64,000 nucleotides of DNA from Chryseobacterium sp. LJ668. Its GTDB lineage: Bacteria; Bacteroidota; Bacteroidia; Flavobacteriales; Weeksellaceae. The DNA lies in assembly GCF_019613955.1 (NCBI RefSeq), contig NZ_CP080443.1, forward strand, positions 2,465,001-2,529,000, written 5' to 3'. Under the pieces are notes generated by a model. The model was not told the origin of the DNA and did no database searches. It was given only the letters and a program-made list of their open reading frames with translations. Of this stretch, positions 32,466 to 44,025 are shown piece by piece. The number at the start of each line of letters is the position of its first letter. Position 1 is the first letter of the stretch. A program made the translations under genes and the position numbers.

Positions 32466-32540
32466 TTTTCCTAGCCCCGATTGCAGAGAAAATCCTTTTT
32501 TGAAAAAAAAGATTGCAACGAAAAGCGGGAAAAAGCTCCT
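32466..32540. repeat. REP-like element (CTAGCCCCGATTG ... AAGCGGGAAAAAGCTCCT)
   Basis: The element begins with CTAGCCCCGATTGCA and ends with AAGCGGGAAAAAGCTCCT. A central hairpin pairs AATCCTTTTTT with AAAAAAAAGATT, and ATTGCAnnGAAAA occurs twice. I recall similar AGCCCCGATTG/AAGCGGGA/GCTCCT units dispersed in Flavobacteriia genomes; that link is from memory and unchecked. With the neighbouring palindrome it fills most of the 314-bp gap between the hydrolase and rplS. Confidence 0.5.
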
Positions 32541-32971: not shown

Positions 32972-33044
32972 CATTATTAATAAAATAAAATGTGTTACGC
33001 TAAGCAACTTACACGGACTTCGTCAGAGGTTGAATAACAGGTTG

Positions 33045-36152: not shown

Positions 36153-36857
36153 ATGATAGATAAAAGAGTAAAAAATGCTGCTGCAGCTATTGAAGGAATC
36201 AAAGACGGGATGACCCTTATGCTTGGAGGATTTGGTCTTTGCGGAATACCCGAAAATTCAATTAATGCTTTGGTAGAAAGTGATGTAAAAGATCTGACCT
36301 GCATTTCAAATAATGCAGGTGTTGATGATTTCGGGTTAGGATTATTGCTTCACAAAAGGCAGATCAAAAAAATGATTTCTTCTTACGTAGGAGAAAATGC
36401 AGAATTCGAAAGACAAATGCTTTCGGGCGAATTAGATGTTGAATTGACACCACAAGGAACTTTAGCAGAAAAATGCCGTGCCGCACAAGCCGGAATTCCT
36501 GCTTTCTACACACCTGCCGGTTTCGGAACAGAAGTCGCACAGGGAAAAGAGGTAAAAGAGTTTAAAGGAAAACCTCATATTTTGGAGCATGCTTATGAAG
36601 CCGATTATTCTATTGTAAAGGCCTGGAAAGGAGATCATGCCGGAAATTTAATTTTCAAAGGATCAGCAAGAAACTTTAACCATCCGATGGCGGGTGCAGG
36701 GAAAATTACCATTGCTGAAGTAGAAGAATTAGTAGCTCCGGGAGAATTAGATCCCAACCAGATTCACATTCCCGGAATTATGATTCAGAGAATCTTTCAG
36801 GGAGAAAAATTCGAAAAAAGAATTGAGCAGCGCACTGTCAGAAAGAAAGATAATTAA
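36153..36857 (+). CDS. scoA: 3-oxoacid CoA-transferase subunit A
   Basis: 234 residues of the CoA-transferase family I, alpha subunit. With subunit B it moves CoA between succinyl-CoA and a 3-oxoacid such as acetoacetate, for use of ketone bodies and related acids. Motifs: [17 protein letters not shown] near residues 19-35, [15 protein letters not shown], and the C-terminal [21 protein letters not shown]. Subunit B follows 138 nt downstream, an unusually long gap for this pair, filled by a hairpin element. Confidence 0.93.
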
Positions 36858-36908
36858 GAATTATTATTTAAACAATTTGAATAATAAAATTTGTATGACT
36901 TGCTGAGT

Positions 36909-36960
36909 GGGAAGCCTTTGCGAACGTAAAAGCAGGATCAATCTAAAAAAGGCTTGTCCC
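36909..36960. repeat. Hairpin-forming insert between the CoA-transferase subunits
   Basis: GGGA-AGCCTTT (36910-36919) is complementary to AAAGGCTTGTCCC (36948-36960) with a 2-nt bulge, enclosing a GCGAACGTAAAAGCAGG loop. There is no T run, so a terminator is unlikely. It sits between two genes that are usually adjacent, so it may be a REP-like insertion or an mRNA processing or stability site. Confidence 0.5.
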
Positions 36961-36995
36961 GAAAATTCAGGATTATAAAAATCAAATTTAAAAAA

Positions 36996-37649
36996 ATGTT
37001 AAGTAAAGAAGATATAGCAAAACGTATTTCAAAAGAAGTGAAAGACGGATATTACGTAAACTTAGGAATCGGGATCCCGACTTTAGTGGCAAACTATGTC
37101 CCGGATAATCTTTCGGTAGAGTTTCAAAGTGAAAACGGAGTTTTAGGAATGGGCCCTTTTCCGTACGAAGGTGAAGAAGATGCAGATGTCATTAACGCAG
37201 GAAAACAGACGATTACCATTTTAGAAGGCGGTTCCTTTTTCGATTCTGCATTCAGTTTCGGAATGATCAGAAGCCAGAAAGTTGATCTGACTATTCTCGG
37301 AGCCATGGAAGTTTCAGAAAACGGAGATATCGCCAACTGGAAAATCCCTGGCAAAATGGTAAAAGGCATGGGTGGCGCCATGGATTTGGTAGCTTCTGCC
37401 GAAAACATTATCGTAGCAATGATGCATGTCAACAAAGCCGGCGAGAGTAAAATCCTGAAAAAATGTACACTCCCTCTTACAGGAATCAACTGCGTGAAAA
37501 AAGTAGTTACAGAACTGGCTGTTTTAGATGTAACTCCAGCCGGATTCAAGCTTGTCGAGAGAGCTCCAGGTGTTTCGGTAGAGCATATCATCAAATCTAC
37601 AGAAGCAGATTTAATTATTGAAGGCGATATTCCTGAAATGTCAATCTGA
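36996..37649 (+). CDS. scoB: 3-oxoacid CoA-transferase subunit B
   Basis: 217 residues from the ATG at 36996 (MLSKEDIAKRIS), which aligns with family starts better than the upstream 36954 codon. The beta-subunit signature is clear: LGIGIPTLVANYV, and SENGVLGMGP with the catalytic Glu of the EN-G motif. Later AMEVSENGDIANWKIPGKMVKG and CTLPLTG are also typical. It is translated from the same transcript as subunit A and followed by a strong terminator. Confidence 0.94.
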   Translation: MLSKEDIAKRISKEVKDGYYVNLGIGIPTLVANYVPDNLSVEFQSENGVLGMGPFPYEGEEDADVINAGKQTITILEGGSFFDSAFSFGMIRSQKVDLTILGAMEVSENGDIANWKIPGKMVKGMGGAMDLVASAENIIVAMMHVNKAGESKILKKCTLPLTGINCVKKVVTELAVLDVTPAGFKLVERAPGVSVEHIIKSTEADLIIEGDIPEMSI

Positions 37650-37657
37650 TAAAATAA

Positions 37658-37688
37658 AAAGGCTGTCTAAGAAAGACAGCTTTTTTTT
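37658..37688. terminator. Bidirectional intrinsic terminator
   Basis: GGCTGTCT (37661-37668) pairs with AGACAGC(T), followed by eight T residues. The A run at the other side gives T residues on the minus strand, serving metQ. Confidence 0.85.
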
Positions 37689-37721
37689 AAGAATAAATAG
37701 GTTTCGAAACAAATTTTTGTT

Positions 37722-38531
37722 TCAAAACCCCCGCACTGCACCACCTTTAAATATTTCATCGGCTTTTTTAGCAACTTCTTCAGACTGATAAGATTTTAAA
37801 AAATTTTTAACATTTTCATTATTCTTATTATCTTCCCTAGAAACCACCACATTCATGTATGGTGAATCTTTATCTTCTTTAAATAGTCCAAATTTATCAG
37901 CATCTAATCCTGCTTGCGCAGCAAAATTATTGTTGATAATAGCAATTACCACCTCTTTATCGTCCAAAACTCTCGGCAGTTGAGGTGCTTCAATTTCTAA
38001 AATCTTTAAGTGCTTTTGATTGCCAATAATGTCAGTCACTTTTGGTAATAAGCCAACTTCACTTTTAAGCTTTAATAAACCGTTTTTCTGAAGCAGAAGC
38101 AAGGATCTTCCCCCATTTGTCGGATCGTTTGGAATCACGATTGTGCTTCCATTCTGAAGCTCGGAAATATTTTTAATCTTTTTTGAATAAGCGATAATTG
38201 GATACACAAAAGTATTTCCAATCACAGCCAATTTATAACCACGCTGTTTTGATTGTTCGTTTAAATAAGGAACATGCTGAAAAGCATTTGCATCAATATC
38301 CCCGTTATTAAGTGCTTCGTTTGGAATTACATAATCATTGAAAGAGATGAGTTCTACTTCCAGATTATATTTTTCTTTGGCTACTTTTTTCGCAGTTTCG
38401 GCAATTTCCTGCTCAGGACCAGAAGTGATCCCGACTTTAATATAATTCGGATTATCTTTTTTTGGCGAATTACACGCATTCAATAAAAGCAAACCTGCTG
38501 CTACAAAACTTAGAATTTTTATTTTTTTCAT
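37722..38531 (-). CDS. metQ: Methionine ABC transporter substrate-binding lipoprotein
   Basis: 269 residues. Lipoprotein signal ending LLLLNAC (Cys about residue 20). The NlpA/MetQ family is shown by KVGITSGPEQEIAETAKKVA, DIDANAFQHVPYLNEQ, and the later SVVIAIINNNFAAQAG-type region (VVIAIINNNFAAQAGLD). It binds D/L-methionine and related compounds at the outer face of the membrane for MetNI. It is last in the operon, after metI, with a 45-nt gap. Confidence 0.94.
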   Translation of the reverse strand: MKKIKILSFVAAGLLLLNACNSPKKDNPNYIKVGITSGPEQEIAETAKKVAKEKYNLEVELISFNDYVIPNEALNNGDIDANAFQHVPYLNEQSKQRGYKLAVIGNTFVYPIIAYSKKIKNISELQNGSTIVIPNDPTNGGRSLLLLQKNGLLKLKSEVGLLPKVTDIIGNQKHLKILEIEAPQLPRVLDDKEVVIAIINNNFAAQAGLDADKFGLFKEDKDSPYMNVVVSREDNKNNENVKNFLKSYQSEEVAKKADEIFKGGAVRGF

Positions 38532-38576
38532 TGTAAATTATTTTTTTAACTATATAACTATAAAACTGCAGTAAAC

Positions 38577-39233
38577 TTATCGATGATCAAACCTCTTTGC
38601 CAAGCGATCCCCTGCAAACTGAATGATAAACACCAAAGCCACGAGAAGACCTAGAACCAGATTCATAATCACAGCATCATAACCGATATATCCGTACTGA
38701 TAGCCGATCTGTCCCAATCCACCTGCACCGACTGCTCCTCCCATTGCAGAATAACCCACCAATGTAATCAGCGTAATACTCGCGTTGTTAATGAGCGATG
38801 GTAATGCTTCTGGCAATAAAACTTTTCTGATAATTTGAAATGGACTCGCTCCCAAAGCTCTTGCAGTTTCAATCAAGCCTTGCGGAATTTCGAGCAGACT
38901 GTTTTCAACCAATCTTGCAATAAAAGGAGCCGCACCGATACTTAAAGGAACCAATGCAGCATTGACGCCGATTGAAGTTCCCACTAAAGATCTGGTGAAA
39001 GGGATCATCCACACAATAAGAATAATAAAAGGAATAGACCTGAAAATATTCACTAAAACAGACAGAATTCTGTTGTAAATAATATTCTCTAAAAGCTGGC
39101 CTTTTTTAGTTAAAAATAAAAGAATTCCTACTGGTAATCCTAATGAAAAACCAAATAATCCCGAAGCAAAAGTCATGTATATCGTTTCCCAAAGTCCTTT
39201 AGATAAAAGGGAAATCACGTTTTCATTAAGCAT
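38577..39233 (-). CDS. metI: Methionine ABC transporter permease
   Basis: 218 residues, five predicted TM helices. The permease coupling motif near residues 120-150 (LIETARALGASPFQIIRKVLLPEALPSL) contains the EAA-type loop that meets MetN. MetI with MetN forms the inner-membrane methionine importer. The start overlaps the metN stop by 8 nt, so the pair is translationally coupled. Confidence 0.94.
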   Translation of the reverse strand: MLNENVISLLSKGLWETIYMTFASGLFGFSLGLPVGILLFLTKKGQLLENIIYNRILSVLVNIFRSIPFIILIVWMIPFTRSLVGTSIGVNAALVPLSIGAAPFIARLVENSLLEIPQGLIETARALGASPFQIIRKVLLPEALPSLINNASITLITLVGYSAMGGAVGAGGLGQIGYQYGYIGYDAVIMNLVLGLLVALVFIIQFAGDRLAKRFDHR

Positions 39234-40254
39234 ATCCTCTTAGTGTATTTTGAATTTTATTTTGATTGAAATAATAGAATGCTTTTTGGTTTTCTTCGTA
39301 TTTTCCTTTTAATTGAAGCAATAGCGTTCCAATGTTTGCATTCCCCAAATATTCCACATCTGCTTTCAAAAGCTGGTAAGGAATTTTATATTCGTTGTAT
39401 ATTTTCGAAAGCAAATTTTCTACACTTATGTCTTCGTTAAGTTCAACTTCAACCAATGGAAATAAGCCGTCCTGTGGTTCTTTCTGAAGTGTTTTTGTGA
39501 ATTCCTGAGGTATTGTCATGTTTCCTGAGTTTATAAATTTTTTGATGATCGGATGATCTCTGTTTGAGATAATCTCTTTGAGTGTTCCCTTTACAACCAA
39601 TTTTCCTTCATCAATGACAGAAACGTGGTTGCAAATGGCTTTGATAACATCCATTTCGTGTGTAATAAGCAAAATGGTGATTCCTAAACGATGATTGATG
39701 TCTTTTAAAAGTTCTAAAATAGATTTCGTTGTTGCAGGATCCAGTGCACTCGTCGCTTCGTCGCAAAGCAGCAAGTAAGGATCATTGGCTAAAGCTCTCG
39801 CAATCGCAACCCTCTGTTTTTGTCCACCCGACAGACTTTTAGGATAATCATTAGCTTTATCTTCCAACCCGACAATTTTTAAAAGTTCATTGACTTTCTC
39901 ACGAATTTGATCTTTTTTAAGCTGATCCAATTCCAAAGGAAGCGCTACATTTTCAAAAACTGTTCTTGAAGAAAGCAGATTAAAATGCTGGAAAATCATC
40001 CCGATCTTTTTACGCTCTTTGGCCAGTTGTTTTGAATTTAATGTTGTGAAATCTGTTCCGTTGATGATGATTTGTCCCTGATCCGGTCTTTCCAAAAGAT
40101 TGACGGTTCGGATCAATGTACTTTTTCCAGCTCCGGAAAAACCGATGATTCCTACAATATCTCCCTCCTCAATGTTGAGGCTTATGTCATCCAAAGCCTT
40201 GAAAGACTGTTTCTTCTGATGGAATGTTTTTGAAATGTTTATAATTTCTATCAT
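39226..40254 (-). CDS. metN: Methionine ABC transporter ATP-binding protein
   Basis: 342 residues. Walker A GFSGAGKST near residues 37-45, the Q-loop IFQHFNLL, ABC signature LSGGQKQR, Walker B LLLCDEATSALD and switch His in LLITHEMD. A C-terminal NIL domain (about 265-342, PLVEVELNEDISVENLLSKI) is present; in MetN this domain binds methionine and inhibits transport when the amino acid is abundant. It lies 12 nt downstream of the DMT transporter gene, in the same operon. Confidence 0.95.
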   Translation of the reverse strand: MIEIINISKTFHQKKQSFKALDDISLNIEEGDIVGIIGFSGAGKSTLIRTVNLLERPDQGQIIINGTDFTTLNSKQLAKERKKIGMIFQHFNLLSSRTVFENVALPLELDQLKKDQIREKVNELLKIVGLEDKANDYPKSLSGGQKQRVAIARALANDPYLLLCDEATSALDPATTKSILELLKDINHRLGITILLITHEMDVIKAICNHVSVIDEGKLVVKGTLKEIISNRDHPIIKKFINSGNMTIPQEFTKTLQKEPQDGLFPLVEVELNEDISVENLLSKIYNEYKIPYQLLKADVEYLGNANIGTLLLQLKGKYEENQKAFYYFNQNKIQNTLRGYA

Positions 40255-40266
40255 TATTTATTTTAA

Positions 40267-41265
40267 TTACATGGGTTGATAAGGTCTGCTGATTTTGTTA
40301 AACTGTCTTACAGCTCTTCTGATCTTTGTTTTTGATCTTTTAGAAAGTTTAAAATATTTGGTGACGTTCGTTAAAAGAACTCCAATTAGGATGATAAGTA
40401 ATCCGTACAGCTGATTTCCGTTGATTGTCTGATTGGCAATGATAAATCCTGAAATAACGGTAACGATCGGATTGATATAAGTATGCGTACTAACAATGGC
40501 TGCAGGTTTTACTGATAAAAGCCAGATATAAGATATATACGCAATAATAGATCCGAAGAAAATCAAAAATAATAAACCTAACCAAGCCGAAAGGGGAACT
40601 GCTGTGATTGAAAAACCGGTCCATTCATTTCTAAAAAATGCAACAAGAAATGCAACAAGACCTGCAATGATCAACTGCTGCGAAATATTCATAAAGGTTG
40701 AATGATCGGCCGGGTTTTTCTTTGAATATAAAGATCCCAAAACCCATGCTACCGAACTTAATGCGAGAACAATAAAGGCGATTATTCTGAGAGAGGCATT
40801 TGCATTTGCAGTATGAGTATTTACACTTCCGTTTAAAAATAAAATCAGTCCTGCAAATCCTAACAGTAACCCAATCGGAATAAATTTGTCTGAAAAGTAA
40901 TAGCTCCAGTTCTTTTTGTCGATGGCAATGAACCAAAACGGTCCGGTTGCAATAGCGATGGCAGCTTCGGAAGCAGTAACGTATTGTTCACCCCACGCAA
41001 CAAGACCTGTTCCTCCGGTCAGAATCAGAATTCCTGTTACTGCATTTTTCCACCAGTTTTTCAGTGAATTTGCTTTTTCACCTTTTGCTGTAAGATAACC
41101 GATGAGTAAAATTCCGGCAGCAAAGAATCTGAATCCCGAAAGTATAAAGGGCGGAAATCCTGTCAATCCGAATGAGATGGCGAGGAAAGTAATTCCCCAG
41201 ATGATATAAATGTTGGCAAAGGCTACGGGAACCAGCCACTTGTTTTTAAAATCAGTTGTTTTCAT
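40267..41265 (-). CDS. EamA/DMT family transporter, first gene of the met operon
   Basis: 332 residues with ten predicted TM helices in two EamA halves (IIWGITFLAISFGLTGFPPF; later VKPAAIVSTHTYINPIVTVISGF) and a very basic C-terminal tail (SKRSKTKIRRAVRQ). Similar DMT proteins export amino acids such as cysteine or threonine. Here the gene is co-transcribed with metN (12 nt gap) and is controlled by the upstream leader, which suggests a sulfur amino acid or related metabolite as substrate (inference). The next listed upstream region is a leader, not another gene. Confidence 0.86.
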   Translation of the reverse strand: MKTTDFKNKWLVPVAFANIYIIWGITFLAISFGLTGFPPFILSGFRFFAAGILLIGYLTAKGEKANSLKNWWKNAVTGILILTGGTGLVAWGEQYVTASEAAIAIATGPFWFIAIDKKNWSYYFSDKFIPIGLLLGFAGLILFLNGSVNTHTANANASLRIIAFIVLALSSVAWVLGSLYSKKNPADHSTFMNISQQLIIAGLVAFLVAFFRNEWTGFSITAVPLSAWLGLLFLIFFGSIIAYISYIWLLSVKPAAIVSTHTYINPIVTVISGFIIANQTINGNQLYGLLIILIGVLLTNVTKYFKLSKRSKTKIRRAVRQFNKISRPYQPM

Positions 41266-41289
41266 ATTGTTTTATTCACTTGTTTTTTC

Positions 41290-41325
41290 AAATAAAAAAG
41301 GCTCTACAACGTGGTAAAGCCTTTA
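41290..41325 (-). terminator. Leader attenuator terminator of the DMT-metNIQ operon
   Basis: On the minus strand AAAGGCTTTAC (41324-41314) pairs with GTAGAGCCTTT (41307-41297) in an 11-bp stem (one G-U) around a 6-nt loop, followed by TTTTTTATTT. It sits 27 nt after the leader-peptide stop and about 30 nt before the DMT transporter start, inside the presumed transcript. Its 5' arm TAAAGGC (41325-41319) is complementary to GCCTTTA inside the leader ORF (41379-41373), which would form a competing antiterminator. Confidence 0.8.
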
Positions 41326-41351
41326 AAAAATATGTCATAATAAAAGTAAGG

Positions 41352-41423
41352 TCATCCACTAAAATATATATATAAAGGCATACAGCAATACATCATCATA
41401 TGCATGATGTTGATCTTCTTCAT
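41352..41423 (-). CDS. Met/Cys-rich leader peptide (candidate attenuator ORF)
   Basis: A 23-codon ORF, ATG at 41423 and TGA at 41352-41354, beginning MKKINIMHMMMYCCM. Six of 23 residues are Met and two adjacent are Cys, far from background composition. It lies about 48 nt downstream of a consensus promoter and 27 nt upstream of an intrinsic terminator, ahead of a methionine-transporter operon. This is the layout of amino-acid leader peptides whose translation senses charged tRNA. Its product is probably only a sensor with no function of its own. Sequence facts are direct; the regulatory role is inferred. Confidence 0.75.
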   Translation of the reverse strand: MKKINIMHMMMYCCMPLYIYFSG

Positions 41424-41477
41424 AGAATTGTATCTGAATTTTGTTTTCATTTTCATTTCCAAACCTGATTACGGTTG

Positions 41478-41485
41478 CAAATATA
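41478..41485 (-). promoter_or_regulatory. -7 promoter box of leader peptide and met operon
   Basis: On the minus strand the sequence is TATATTTG, an exact TAnnTTTG match. The transcript would begin near 41471 and reach the leader ATG after about 48 nt. No clear -33 TTTG was seen; an inverted repeat occupies that place. Confidence 0.6.
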
Positions 41486-41502
41486 AAACATAAATTTTTA
41501 TT

Positions 41503-41523
41503 AGTCTACTTTTTTAGTAGACT
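41503..41523. promoter_or_regulatory. 8-bp inverted repeat at the -35 region of the met leader promoter
   Basis: AGTCTACT (41503-41510) and AGTAGACT (41516-41523) are perfect inverted repeats with a 5-nt T spacer. The centre is about 42 nt upstream of the expected start site, where an activator or repressor could bind. It also has a T run on the plus strand, but no gene upstream would need that terminator. Confidence 0.45.
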
Positions 41524-41565
41524 TTTTAATGATTTCTTTTTAAGTATTTGATTTTTAGATGTTTA

Positions 41566-41611
41566 TTTTAAGAAATTAATCAATATTTCTGTTGTATTTA
41601 ATTTCTTAAAA
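41566..41611. repeat. 14-bp perfect inverted repeat between met operon and topB
   Basis: TTTTAAGAAATTAA (41566-41579) and TTAATTTCTTAAAA (41598-41611) are exact reverse complements separated by 18 nt. The region between the two divergent genes (505 bp including the leader) holds no further ORF that I can support. Confidence 0.5.
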
Positions 41612-41770
41612 ATGAAAATTTAAAAAAGCTATTCGAAGAGAGTTTTCTATATGTAATGAAGTCATAAAACTTTTGTAATTAGAAATATTAACTGATAATC
41701 TTTCAAATCCCACACCATTAAGTCAAAAAAAATCCCGAATTTTGCACCCCTTTCTATAACCCGATTATTC

Positions 41771-43894
41771 ATGAAGCTTTGTATTGCCGAAAAACCCAGT
41801 GTTGCCAGAGATATTGCCAAAGTTTTGGGCGCAACCATGCTGAAACAAGGCTATATGGAAGGGAATGGCTATTGTGTGACATGGACTTTCGGACATCTCT
41901 GTACCCTCAAAGAACCTCACGATTACGGTCCGCAATACAAATCATGGAATCTGTTTTTGCTGCCGATTATTCCAAATAATTTCGGGATTAAATTAATTCC
42001 AAACAAAGGCGTTGAAAATCAGTTTAAAGTTATTGAAAAACTGGTTGCAGAATGTGATGAAGTGATCAATTGCGGGGATGCGGGACAAGAAGGAGAGCTT
42101 ATTCAGCGTTGGGTTTTGCAGAAAGCAAAATGTGATAAACCGGTGCAGCGTTTGTGGATTTCCTCCCTGACTGAAGAAGCGATTAAAGAAGGTTTTGAAA
42201 AATTAAGACCTGCCGAAGATTACAAAAATCTCTACCTCGCAGGAAATGCAAGAGCAATAGGAGATTGGTTGTTGGGAATCAATGCCACAAGACTTTTTAC
42301 GAAGAAATTTGGCGGAAATAAAGCGGTTTTATCCATCGGAAGAGTGCAGACTCCGACTTTGGCGATGCTCGTTCAGCGTCAGAAAGAAATTGATACGTTT
42401 TCAACCGAAGAATATTGGGAATTGAAAACCAAGTACCGTGATGTTATTTTCAACGCAGCAATCGATCGTTTGAAAACATTAGATCGTGCAGAAAAAGGTT
42501 TGGAATATTTAAAAGTCAATCCTTTTGAAATTCTTTCATTTGAGATTAAAGAAGGGAAAGAAAAAAATCCAAGATTGTTTGATCTGACCGGACTTCAGGT
42601 GGAGGCCAATAAAAAATACGGCTACTCTGCAGACAGCACTTTAAAATATATTCAAAGTCTTTACGAGAAAAAACACGTCACTTATCCGCGTGTTGATACA
42701 ACGTATTTATCAGAAAGTCTATATCCGAAAATTGGTGGAATTCTTCAAAGTATGGTCATTTATAAAGAATTGATTTCGCCTTTGCTTGAACAGCCGATTC
42801 CAAAATCTAAAGCGGTTTTTGATGATGCTAAAGTGACAGATCACCATGCGATTATTCCGACTGAAATTCCGCCGACTCAGAATTTAATCAGAGAAGAAAA
42901 ACTGATTTATGATCTGATTGCGAAACGTTTTATCGCCGTTTTTTATCCTGAATGTAAAATTTCAAATACATTGGTAGAAGCGCAAGTTGGAACGATTGCG
43001 TTTAAAACAAGCGGTAGACAGATTCTTGAACCTGGTTGGAGAGCCGTTTATGCCAAAGACGCCAAAGAAGAACCGACCGATAAAGAAAAGGATAAGGAAG
43101 AGGAACAGACGATTCCTGAATTTAAAGTTGGAGAAACAGGTCCTCACGAACCGATGATTCATCAGGGAAAAACTTCACCACCAAAAGCGTATACGGAAGC
43201 AACTTTGCTTCGTGCCATGGAAACTGCAGGAAAACAGGTCGATGATGAAGAACTTCGTGAAATGTTGAAAAATAACGGTATCGGAAGACCTTCAACCCGT
43301 GCAAATATTATCGAAACGCTTTTCAAGAGAAAATATATCGAAAGAAAAAAGAAAAATCTTGTGGCGACTTCTACAGGAATTCAGCTGATCGACACCATTG
43401 AAGATGAGTTGCTGAAAAGCCCGGAACTGACAGGGGAGTGGGAATTAAAGCTTCGTAAAATCGAAAGTGGTGAATATGAAGCCAATCAATTCAAAGACGA
43501 ATTGATTCAGATGATCAGAGAACTTACCAAAAAAGTGGTTGACGGAAAAGCAAAAGTTTTCACTCTACACGAAGAAAAAGATGAGGTCAAAGAAAAGAAA
43601 AAACGTGAACCGGCTGTAAAAAAAGAACTGCAGTCTTGGGAAGAAACAAAATGCCCGAAATGCAAAGAACACCATCTGATGAAGGGAAAAACCGCAGTCG
43701 GATGTTCAGATTTTAAAAATTGCGGCTTTAAAGTTTCATTTGATATTTTCGGAAAAAAACTTTCCGATAAACAGCTAATGGATTTGGTTTTAAAAGGAAA
43801 AACCTCAAAATTAAAAGGTTTTACCACGCACCCTGAAAGTTTAACTGAAGGAATTGTTTCGCTTTCTCCTGAATTTGTGACAGTCTTAATTTAA
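41771..43894 (+). CDS. topB: DNA topoisomerase III
   Basis: 707 residues, type IA topoisomerase. The N-terminal TOPRIM domain shows CIAEKPSVARDIAK and DAGQEGELIQR (metal-binding acids). The catalytic Tyr lies in HVTYPRVDTTYLS near residue 310; GRVQTPTLAMLV is the family 5Y-type region. A zinc-binding C4 motif (CPKCKEHHL...VGCSDFKNCGF) lies near residues 632-660. Top III decatenates DNA and resolves recombination intermediates. A short acidic and Lys-rich insert near residue 440 (TDKEKDKEEEQ) is a species-specific loop. Confidence 0.95.
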   Translation: MKLCIAEKPSVARDIAKVLGATMLKQGYMEGNGYCVTWTFGHLCTLKEPHDYGPQYKSWNLFLLPIIPNNFGIKLIPNKGVENQFKVIEKLVAECDEVINCGDAGQEGELIQRWVLQKAKCDKPVQRLWISSLTEEAIKEGFEKLRPAEDYKNLYLAGNARAIGDWLLGINATRLFTKKFGGNKAVLSIGRVQTPTLAMLVQRQKEIDTFSTEEYWELKTKYRDVIFNAAIDRLKTLDRAEKGLEYLKVNPFEILSFEIKEGKEKNPRLFDLTGLQVEANKKYGYSADSTLKYIQSLYEKKHVTYPRVDTTYLSESLYPKIGGILQSMVIYKELISPLLEQPIPKSKAVFDDAKVTDHHAIIPTEIPPTQNLIREEKLIYDLIAKRFIAVFYPECKISNTLVEAQVGTIAFKTSGRQILEPGWRAVYAKDAKEEPTDKEKDKEEEQTIPEFKVGETGPHEPMIHQGKTSPPKAYTEATLLRAMETAGKQVDDEELREMLKNNGIGRPSTRANIIETLFKRKYIERKKKNLVATSTGIQLIDTIEDELLKSPELTGEWELKLRKIESGEYEANQFKDELIQMIRELTKKVVDGKAKVFTLHEEKDEVKEKKKREPAVKKELQSWEETKCPKCKEHHLMKGKTAVGCSDFKNCGFKVSFDIFGKKLSDKQLMDLVLKGKTSKLKGFTTHPESLTEGIVSLSPEFVTVLI

Positions 43895-43897
43895 TTG

Positions 43898-44025
43898 GCT
43901 GGAAGATGGATGTCTGAAGCTGGATGTTTATTTAGACATCAAATCAGAGATTGTTCAAATAGTGAAAGCTTTGGGCTACCTATGACAATAATCCTTATCA
44001 AACATCTATCATCCAGCTTCCAACA
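43898..44025. repeat. Inverted repeat with GAAGCTGGATG words between topB and the HhH gene
   Basis: GAAGCTGGATG (43916-43926) and CATCCAGCTTC (44010-44020) are perfect 11-bp inverted repeats about 83 nt apart. GGAAGATGGATG is repeated beside them. The same words occur at 32308-32335. The two flanking genes are convergent, so it may act as a terminator or be a mobile repeat. Confidence 0.5.

Follow-up and report, generated by a model that had tools for sequence, protein, structure and literature searches.

The methionine import operon metNIQ of Chryseobacterium sp. LJ668 is very probably governed by a ribosome-mediated transcription attenuator that senses methionine and perhaps cysteine. This reading is based on the conservation of the element, its spacing, its linkage to the operon and compensatory changes in its antiterminator. 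The locus lies on the minus strand of the window, the 64,000-nucleotide stretch of DNA analysed here (Table 1). An earlier note, made from the sequence alone, had described a promoter box, a short ORF, a gap, a terminator and an operon there, and every one of these is in place: the TATATTTG box, the 27-nt gap, the 11-bp terminator with its T run and the order DMT-metN-metI-metQ were all confirmed. The Met/Cys-rich ORF ending at 41352 also stands, but not its proposed length of 23 codons: the start codon that agrees with the relatives is ATG 41456, so the leader has 34 codons. The locus shows features of an attenuator, with a translatable ORF between promoter and first gene, a codon cluster at a set place and an intrinsic terminator. 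The best NCBIfam model for MetN is TIGR02314, at 437 bits against a cut-off of 499.7. Elsewhere in the window, Rfam matches a Flavo-1 RNA (32469-32536, plus strand, 67 bits) and an L19-Flavobacteria ribosomal protein leader (33005-33032, minus strand, 36 bits).

Table 1. The metNIQ leader locus and its operator-like palindrome. Positions are those of the window, except in the last two lines, which give genome positions.
Feature	Position	Strand	Remarks
Palindromic operator-like site AGTCTACTAAAAAAGTAGACTAAT	41500-41523	-	Directly upstream of the promoter
Promoter box TATATTTG	41478-41485	-	Bacteroidota TAnnTTTG type
Leader ORF MKMKTKFRYNSMKKINIMHMMMYCCMPLYIYFSG	41352-41456	-	34 codons + TGA; start ATG 41456
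Shorter in-frame ORF	ATG 41423 to TGA 41354-41352	-	23 codons, six Met, two adjacent Cys
Core Met-Met-Met-Tyr-Cys-Cys-Met-Pro	41376-41399	-	Proposed stalling zone; 45 to 24 nt ahead of the stop
GCCTTTA, 5' strand of the alternative pairing	41373-41379	-	Without covariation support
Antiterminator 5' strand GTGGATGACCTT	41348-41359	-	Leader stop codon inside; compensated cells and duplex swap test
Leader stop TGA	41354-41352	-	27 nt ahead of the terminator
TAAAGGC, 3' strand of the alternative pairing	41325-41319	-	
Intrinsic terminator	41294-41324	-	11-bp stem 41324-41297, loop of 6, T run
Antiterminator 3' strand AAGGCTTTACCAC	41311-41323	-	Terminator 5' arm and loop
EamA/DMT-family transporter	40267-41265	-	Optional first operon gene; PF00892
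metN, methionine ABC transporter ATPase with NIL domain	39226-40254	-	TIGR02314, PF00005, PF09383
metI, methionine ABC transporter permease	38577-39233	-	NF008049, above cut-off
metQ, methionine-binding lipoprotein	37722-38531	-	NF008285, above cut-off; PF03180
Genome palindrome site	G000:C1:2005793 (L352)		
Genome palindrome site	C1:2088505 (L367)		

The leader element in front of metNIQ is real and not a product of chance. Full-length orthologs of the DMT gene (77-82% identity) occur in 19 of the 35 other genus members searched, with a broken one in G017, and the Met-Cys core, the spacer and the terminator lie upstream of it in all 20 relatives and in the window. A covariance model, R1, built from 19 of those 21 copies finds a single strong copy in the 3.47-Mb genome of the window (121 bits; runner-up 28.6) and matches 141 of 148 Chryseobacterium genomes at E <= 0.001. 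The seven genus genomes without a match have metN only as partial matches of 41-44% identity, with the C-terminal third missing. Aligning the region upstream of the operon in relatives, as the earlier note had suggested, shows that the Met codons and the terminator are conserved and, less strictly, the Cys codons. The TAnnTTTG box, a promoter consensus in Bacteroidota (PMC9723704), is present in 113 of 116 unique leaders and absent from L166, L173 and L170, the last of which is cut by a contig end. Beyond the genus, 27 genomes in a sample of 148 family genomes match R1 at E <= 0.1; among the four inspected, the match in G284 (60 bits, L173) is a real copy, and those in G248, G232 and G218 (L174-L176) proved to be plain terminators and were excluded from every count. 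In named genomes, the pattern GTGGNTGACCTTACTTTTA retrieves 65 stretches from Chryseobacterium or Weeksellaceae and four others, 69 in all; those four, in Clostridiales, Enterovibrio, Clostridia and Eubacterium records, are presumed to be chance. By sequence comparison, the arrangement is conserved through most of the genus, with counterparts in related genera.

The terminator alone is unremarkable, with six terminator-like sites in 36500-44000 against 6.3 expected in shuffles, and its significance therefore comes from conservation. Across 19 aligned copies 99% of the cells in its stem are paired and the covariation score was matched by 2 of 500 shuffles, with two-sided change at just one pair. 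A perfect stem with a T run was detected automatically at 122 of 131 loci (misplaced at L167); the nine loci missed are five from the genus and four from g42.

We tried 128 loci, which give 116 unique leader sequences, L171-L173 and the contig-cut L170 included. An ORF whose translation is predicted is present at all 128 loci. Its length is 29-35 codons in 111 of the unique leaders, the others having 44 (two) or 45 codons (two) from an upstream ATG, or 13 (one) at a contig end. MM occurs in 114 of the 116, MMM in 68, CMP in 96 and CC in 61; the leaders without MM are L112, which reads MIM, and L170. In 94 of the 114 leaders with MM, the distance from the first of these Met codons to the stop is 45 nt. 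Methionine makes up 14.7% of leader residues, the start excluded, against 1.9% in the 32 window ORFs of at least 250 amino acids, and cysteine 7.8% against 0.8% in the same ORFs. Cys codons vary more than Met codons from leader to leader. The C-terminal part is variable as well (HQEYCG, LYVNFSG, EIEHCGD, LYRNFRS), and its free variation, together with the other Met/Cys-rich sequences found in g42 and in family f3, makes it very unlikely that the leader is a nascent-chain arrest peptide sensing a small molecule such as Met or SAM instead of tRNA shortage, even though CMP is conserved in part at the codon level. A version of that idea in which arrest depends on a conserved C-terminal Gly was dropped, as leaders ending in GD and RS exist.

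We further analysed the genes that the leader serves, using 85 R1 matches fetched with up to 4.5 kb of downstream sequence. Of these, 79 (L092-L170) are the main genus matches, and the remaining six are L171, L172, L173 and the false positives L174-L176. In all 79 divergent genus loci metN lies downstream of the leader, and metI and metQ are also present in 78, the stretch at L168 ending too early. A DMT gene intervenes between leader and metN in 30 loci and is absent from 49. Since the leader precedes metN at every locus, with or without DMT, the element belongs to metNIQ, and DMT as the regulated gene was rejected on the 49 loci that lack it. The leader and metNIQ therefore go together and DMT is optional, with G121 as a decayed exception. 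In L173, from another genus, the leader stands upstream of DMT and metN.

Two further copies differ from this pattern. In G121 (L172), a leader remnant, MMRCGVPLYTDF, precedes a frame that resembles only the C-terminal part of MetN, and metI and metQ are absent, which is probably operon decay. G103 carries a second, degenerate copy of the leader (L171), which reads MMMQYYMCRSM and is followed by a gene for an amino-acid permease; among the NCBIfam models this permease matches BcaP best, though below cut-off. Here a second transporter may have acquired a copy of the attenuator.

Compensatory changes are seen in a pairing of GTGGNTGACCTT, which spans the leader stop codon, with AAGGCYYTACCAC in the 5' arm and loop of the terminator; the first of these strands has the form GTGGN-stop-CCTT. 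Across 112 leaders (L171, L172, L170 and L134 left out), and with kinship ignored, 90.8% of cells are paired against 89.6% in shuffles, and 8 cells are compensated against 0.8; neither value was reached in any of 1000 shuffles. Sliding the 3' strand by 1-3 positions lowers the share paired to 35-55%. Two-sided changes alone are no higher than in these slid controls (1-14), so that only the share paired exceeds them. Five genomes, representing about three events, supply all 8 compensated cells: a GGAGU:ACUCC compensation (from GUGGU:ACCAC) accounts for six cells in three related genomes, and the rest are AUGGU:ACCAU in L160 (also from GUGGU:ACCAC) and the UUUGG:CCAAG region of L043. In a shifted register, L117 pairs UGUAG with CUACA, and L173, from another genus, UGUCGUA with UACGACA. 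Native duplexes average -11.2 kcal/mol against -10.3 for strands swapped between species (0 of 5000 permutations; 84 unique strand pairs, kinship ignored, with L070, L074 and L128 included under a wrong stop from the automatic choice). The locus thus has an antiterminator that excludes the terminator and covaries, through few independent events, and equivalent stop-region pairings occur in three further lineages.

This covariation also bears on the idea that the ORF encodes a functional Met/Cys/His small protein, for instance a metal-binding one, with its own terminator, metNIQ being expressed from elsewhere. A conserved ORF could yield a stable peptide, and the leader peptide of the window matched no Pfam or NCBIfam family. 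However, a plain terminator would not need its 5' arm and loop to covary with the stop-codon region, and the constant presence of metN downstream argues against a stand-alone small protein, which we regard as barely plausible.

We then asked how the position of a ribosome would affect this pairing. In a fold scan of 113 leaders (L170-L172 left out), a footprint assumed to begin 15 nt behind the first base of the P-site codon and to end 16 nt ahead of it was blocked, codon by codon, and the RNA was folded up to the terminator loop. As long as the A site lies between 48 and 21 nt ahead of the stop, the stop-spanning antiterminator is predicted to form 8.5 to 9.5 pairs; at 18 nt there are 5.1, from 15 nt on 1.5 or fewer, and at the stop 0. 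The conserved core, 45 to 24 nt before the stop, falls within this permissive zone. Stalls at 66-48 nt give nearly as many pairs (8.3-8.9), hence the scan does not single out the core, and a leader without a ribosome should read through. When the ribosome is near the stop, the RNA behind it forms 3.3-5.6 pairs with the terminator arm. A ribosome on MM leaves at least five antiterminator pairs in 84 of 114 leaders and fails to do so in 30, of which 27 end like the leader of the window; in that leader, stalls on MMM favour an upstream pairing and stalls at 36 to 21 nt the stop-spanning one. With the full hairpin present, a stalled ribosome leaves 0.14 antiterminator against 10.6 terminator pairs, and the terminator dominates in either state. 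A stalled ribosome does not keep the terminator from winning at equilibrium, which means that antitermination must be kinetic. That ribosome position decides the switch is predicted by the scan of truncated RNA and not by equilibrium folding of the full RNA.

The earlier note had placed the antiterminator elsewhere, in GCCTTTA (the Met-Pro-Leu codons) pairing with TAAAGGC. Covariation does not bear this out. Across the 112 leaders there are 0 compensated cells against 1.8 in shuffles, and the pairing is no commoner than in shuffles (79.2% against 80.4%), although slid versions reach only 27-59%. The GCCT:AGGC portion is itself kept in most leaders, being lost from L162, L137, L138, L140 and L059, but the position following GCCT is paired in only 32 of 112, and only 10 of the 116 unique leaders have the full GCCTTTA at most 30 nt from the stop. 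The folding model of the window's leader with a ribosome on MMM does draw GCCTTTA:TAAAGGC, so the pairing may be an addition peculiar to this locus. When the ribosome stands at the stop of that leader, the truncated RNA still shows 10.3 pairs between the terminator arm and the RNA behind the ribosome, presumably those of GCCTTTA:TAAAGGC, and full translation would therefore not abolish it. One further point suggests a constraint at the RNA level: the CMP codons (window 41376-41384) are unusually constant at synonymous sites, with TGT in 89 and the Pro codon CCT in 94 of the 96 CMP leaders, against CCT for 243 of 630 Pro codons in window ORFs, and the stop-spanning antiterminator does not explain this constancy. 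Altogether, an attenuator of the same kind working through GCCTTTA:TAAAGGC is improbable. The original reading of a Met/Cys leader attenuator of metNIQ with a conserved terminator is thus retained, with its antiterminator and its ORF start replaced.

In the preferred, stop-spanning version, RNA polymerase would start at the TATATTTG promoter and a ribosome would follow on the 34-codon leader. With sufficient charged Met-tRNA (and Cys-tRNA), the ribosome would reach the stop codon and cover GTGGATGACCTT; the terminator hairpin would then form and transcription would end ahead of the operon. Under a shortage of elongator Met-tRNA (or Cys-tRNA), it would stall on MMMxCCM, 45 to 27 nt before the stop, leaving the stop-codon strand free to capture AAGGCTTTACCAC before the 3' arm of the terminator is made, and polymerase would continue into metNIQ. 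We infer the translation of the leader, the stalling and the termination in vivo, as well as the tRNA that is sensed, which is more likely that for Met than that for Cys, or both.

Control by a riboswitch, of the SAM type or of another kind, with an accidental ORF, is highly improbable; in its favour is the use of SAM-I riboswitches in the same genomes. SAM-I riboswitches (RF00162) occur in 31 of the 39 relatives searched, and the genome of the window has one, in front of a MetX-like gene that scores under the cut-off for MetX. At metNIQ itself there is no SAM-I and no match to an Rfam SAM family; Rfam gives no match at all in 41200-41720, even at E up to 1. The conservation of the Met codons and of their spacing also argues against an accidental ORF. 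As SAM-I lies elsewhere in these genomes, SAM-I control and leader control of metNIQ coexist.

Other lineages carry comparable leaders. In a sample of the order, metN was found in 37 of 246 genomes at E <= 1e-85. The four metN loci found in genus g42 all have a leader of another sequence, either MNKTIIRYNNKSTMIMCLCMAMPCPVVSGD or MDRIIIRKSNCKSKKVTMIMCYQMAMPFSIVSGD and forms close to it, of the type MIMCLCMAMPC, and a different terminator. There the stop region again pairs with the terminator arm (GTATCAG:CTGATAC; GTATCGG:CCGATGC), and exchanging the strands of L195 and L196 weakens the pairing by 2.4 and 0.8 kcal/mol. In family f3, where seven loci were inspected out of nine genomes with metN, the leaders before metN read, for example, NMMMCCGPVM and CSMMCCDAIM, with CC in 7/7 and MM in 5/7; a GGCTT:AAGCC pairing is found in six of the seven, L333 being a poor fit. 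By eye, six loci from the 16 genomes of genus g28 with metN have short CC leaders before that gene, with few inner Met, perhaps a cysteine-only version. Also by eye, an inverted repeat, AACACTAT ... ATAGTGTGTT, encloses the ORF in these g28 loci (L201-L206), with a terminator in addition. One g40 locus, L212, reads MVMNCNGMHSLV by eye; no clear Met/Cys leader was seen by eye upstream of metN in g35 (one locus), g36 (four) and the other three of the four g40 loci, and the stretch printed for the single g29 locus reached only a DMT-like gene.

These leaders raise the question of whether cysteine, and not methionine, is sensed, with stalling at Cys codons setting the switch and the Met codons incidental. 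The CC leaders of f3 and g28 fit such a reading, as do the presence of at least one Cys in all 116 unique leaders and the Cys carried likewise by the Streptomyces metL leader (PMC8079986). However, the operon is by family a methionine importer, Met is denser than Cys (means of 4.7 and 2.5 per leader) and MM is far more widespread than CC, and the g42 leaders L196-L198 have a single core Cys and several Met. Sensing of cysteine alone is therefore unlikely, though less so than the other alternatives, and we retain methionine, perhaps together with cysteine, as the signal.

Of the 113 unique leaders in which a TAnnTTTG box was found, 94 also have a match to the operator-like site. When up to one mismatch is allowed, the palindrome CTAY-N7-RTRGACTAATA occurs three times in the genome, each time exactly, against two sites for the reversed control pattern. 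One of the three belongs to metNIQ, another precedes a peroxiredoxin gene by 35 nt, and the third lies between two ORFs. The site also occurs within 100 nt of 13 of 34 SAM-I riboswitches, in 10 of 15 genus genomes. We regard the palindrome as a candidate operator for a sulfur regulator. By eye, a related form was also seen before metN in family f3, and at L372 and L373 genes that by eye resemble those for TonB-dependent receptors are preceded by the operator-like site and a SAM-I riboswitch in tandem.

Tentatively, and with doubt and plausibility nearly in balance, Flavobacteriales may share an old two-amino-acid attenuator for sulfur nutrition, in which one zone senses the charging of both Met- and Cys-tRNA. 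Its antiterminator would contain the stop codon or its close neighbourhood, so that arrival at the stop means OFF. The RNA sequence would have drifted beyond recognition (MMMxCCMP, MIMCLCMAMP, MMMCCGPVM) while the codons and the logic were kept, and the operator, which is also found near many SAM-riboswitch promoters, would be layered on top.

Bacterial methionine supply is usually ascribed to SAM riboswitches, T-boxes or MetJ/MetR-type proteins. As is proposed for the leader described here, SAM-I (RF00162) controls methionine-related genes, but it does so through a ligand-binding aptamer without translation. T-boxes read tRNA charging by attenuation, binding the tRNA directly, and leader translation is not needed. 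Control of a methionine transporter by tRNA charging would be common to both systems, and a T-box differs in needing no translated leader. One T-box leader precedes a methionine transporter in Lactobacillus sakei (PMC2965389). The Rfam T-box model has no match in 41200-41720.

Leader-peptide transcription attenuators are established for the trp, his, leu, thr, ilv and phe operons. The metNIQ leader resembles these classical cases in its short ORF with control codons, its mutually exclusive antiterminator and terminator and its genes for the same amino acid; unlike them, it combines Met with Cys control codons, serves transporter genes, has the stop codon in the 5' strand of the antiterminator and belongs to Flavobacteriales. 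Leader peptides are discussed in PMC2965389. The closest parallel is the predicted metL leader of Streptomyces lividans TK24, MSTTSDRTPATEATTTPGARCMCRRMCAF, which lies before the same operon and has Met and Cys near its end (PMC8079986). Compared by description, the two differ: a typical Rho-independent terminator was reported missing for metL in the available text of PMC8079986, whereas the Chryseobacterium leader has a terminator, an antiterminator and comparative support. Actinobacterial cys operons have leader peptides with cysteine codons and lack terminators (PMC1262725, available text). What they have in common with metNIQ is a short ORF upstream in which codons for sulfur amino acids occur in runs; for methionine operons of Actinobacteria, the same text reports no conserved RNA structure upstream. 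In Flavobacterium psychrophilum, clues for leader-peptide attenuation were described upstream of amino-acid biosynthesis operons (PMC9723704), in a main text where the word methionine does not occur. We found no Met attenuator of this type in the available text of PMC1262725 and PMC2965389, nor any methionine attenuator in Bacteroidota in the main texts of the open-access literature.

The class of mechanism is already known and is well supported in silico here; unusual are the amino-acid specificity and an antiterminator that contains the stop codon. Through a translated Met/Cys leader whose attenuator is complete and covaries, methionine, and perhaps cysteine, would join the amino acids sensed in this way. 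As its codons, both of its strands and natural compensated variants are defined, the element is a ready experimental system. Leader-peptide attenuation would thereby extend to uptake in Bacteroidota.
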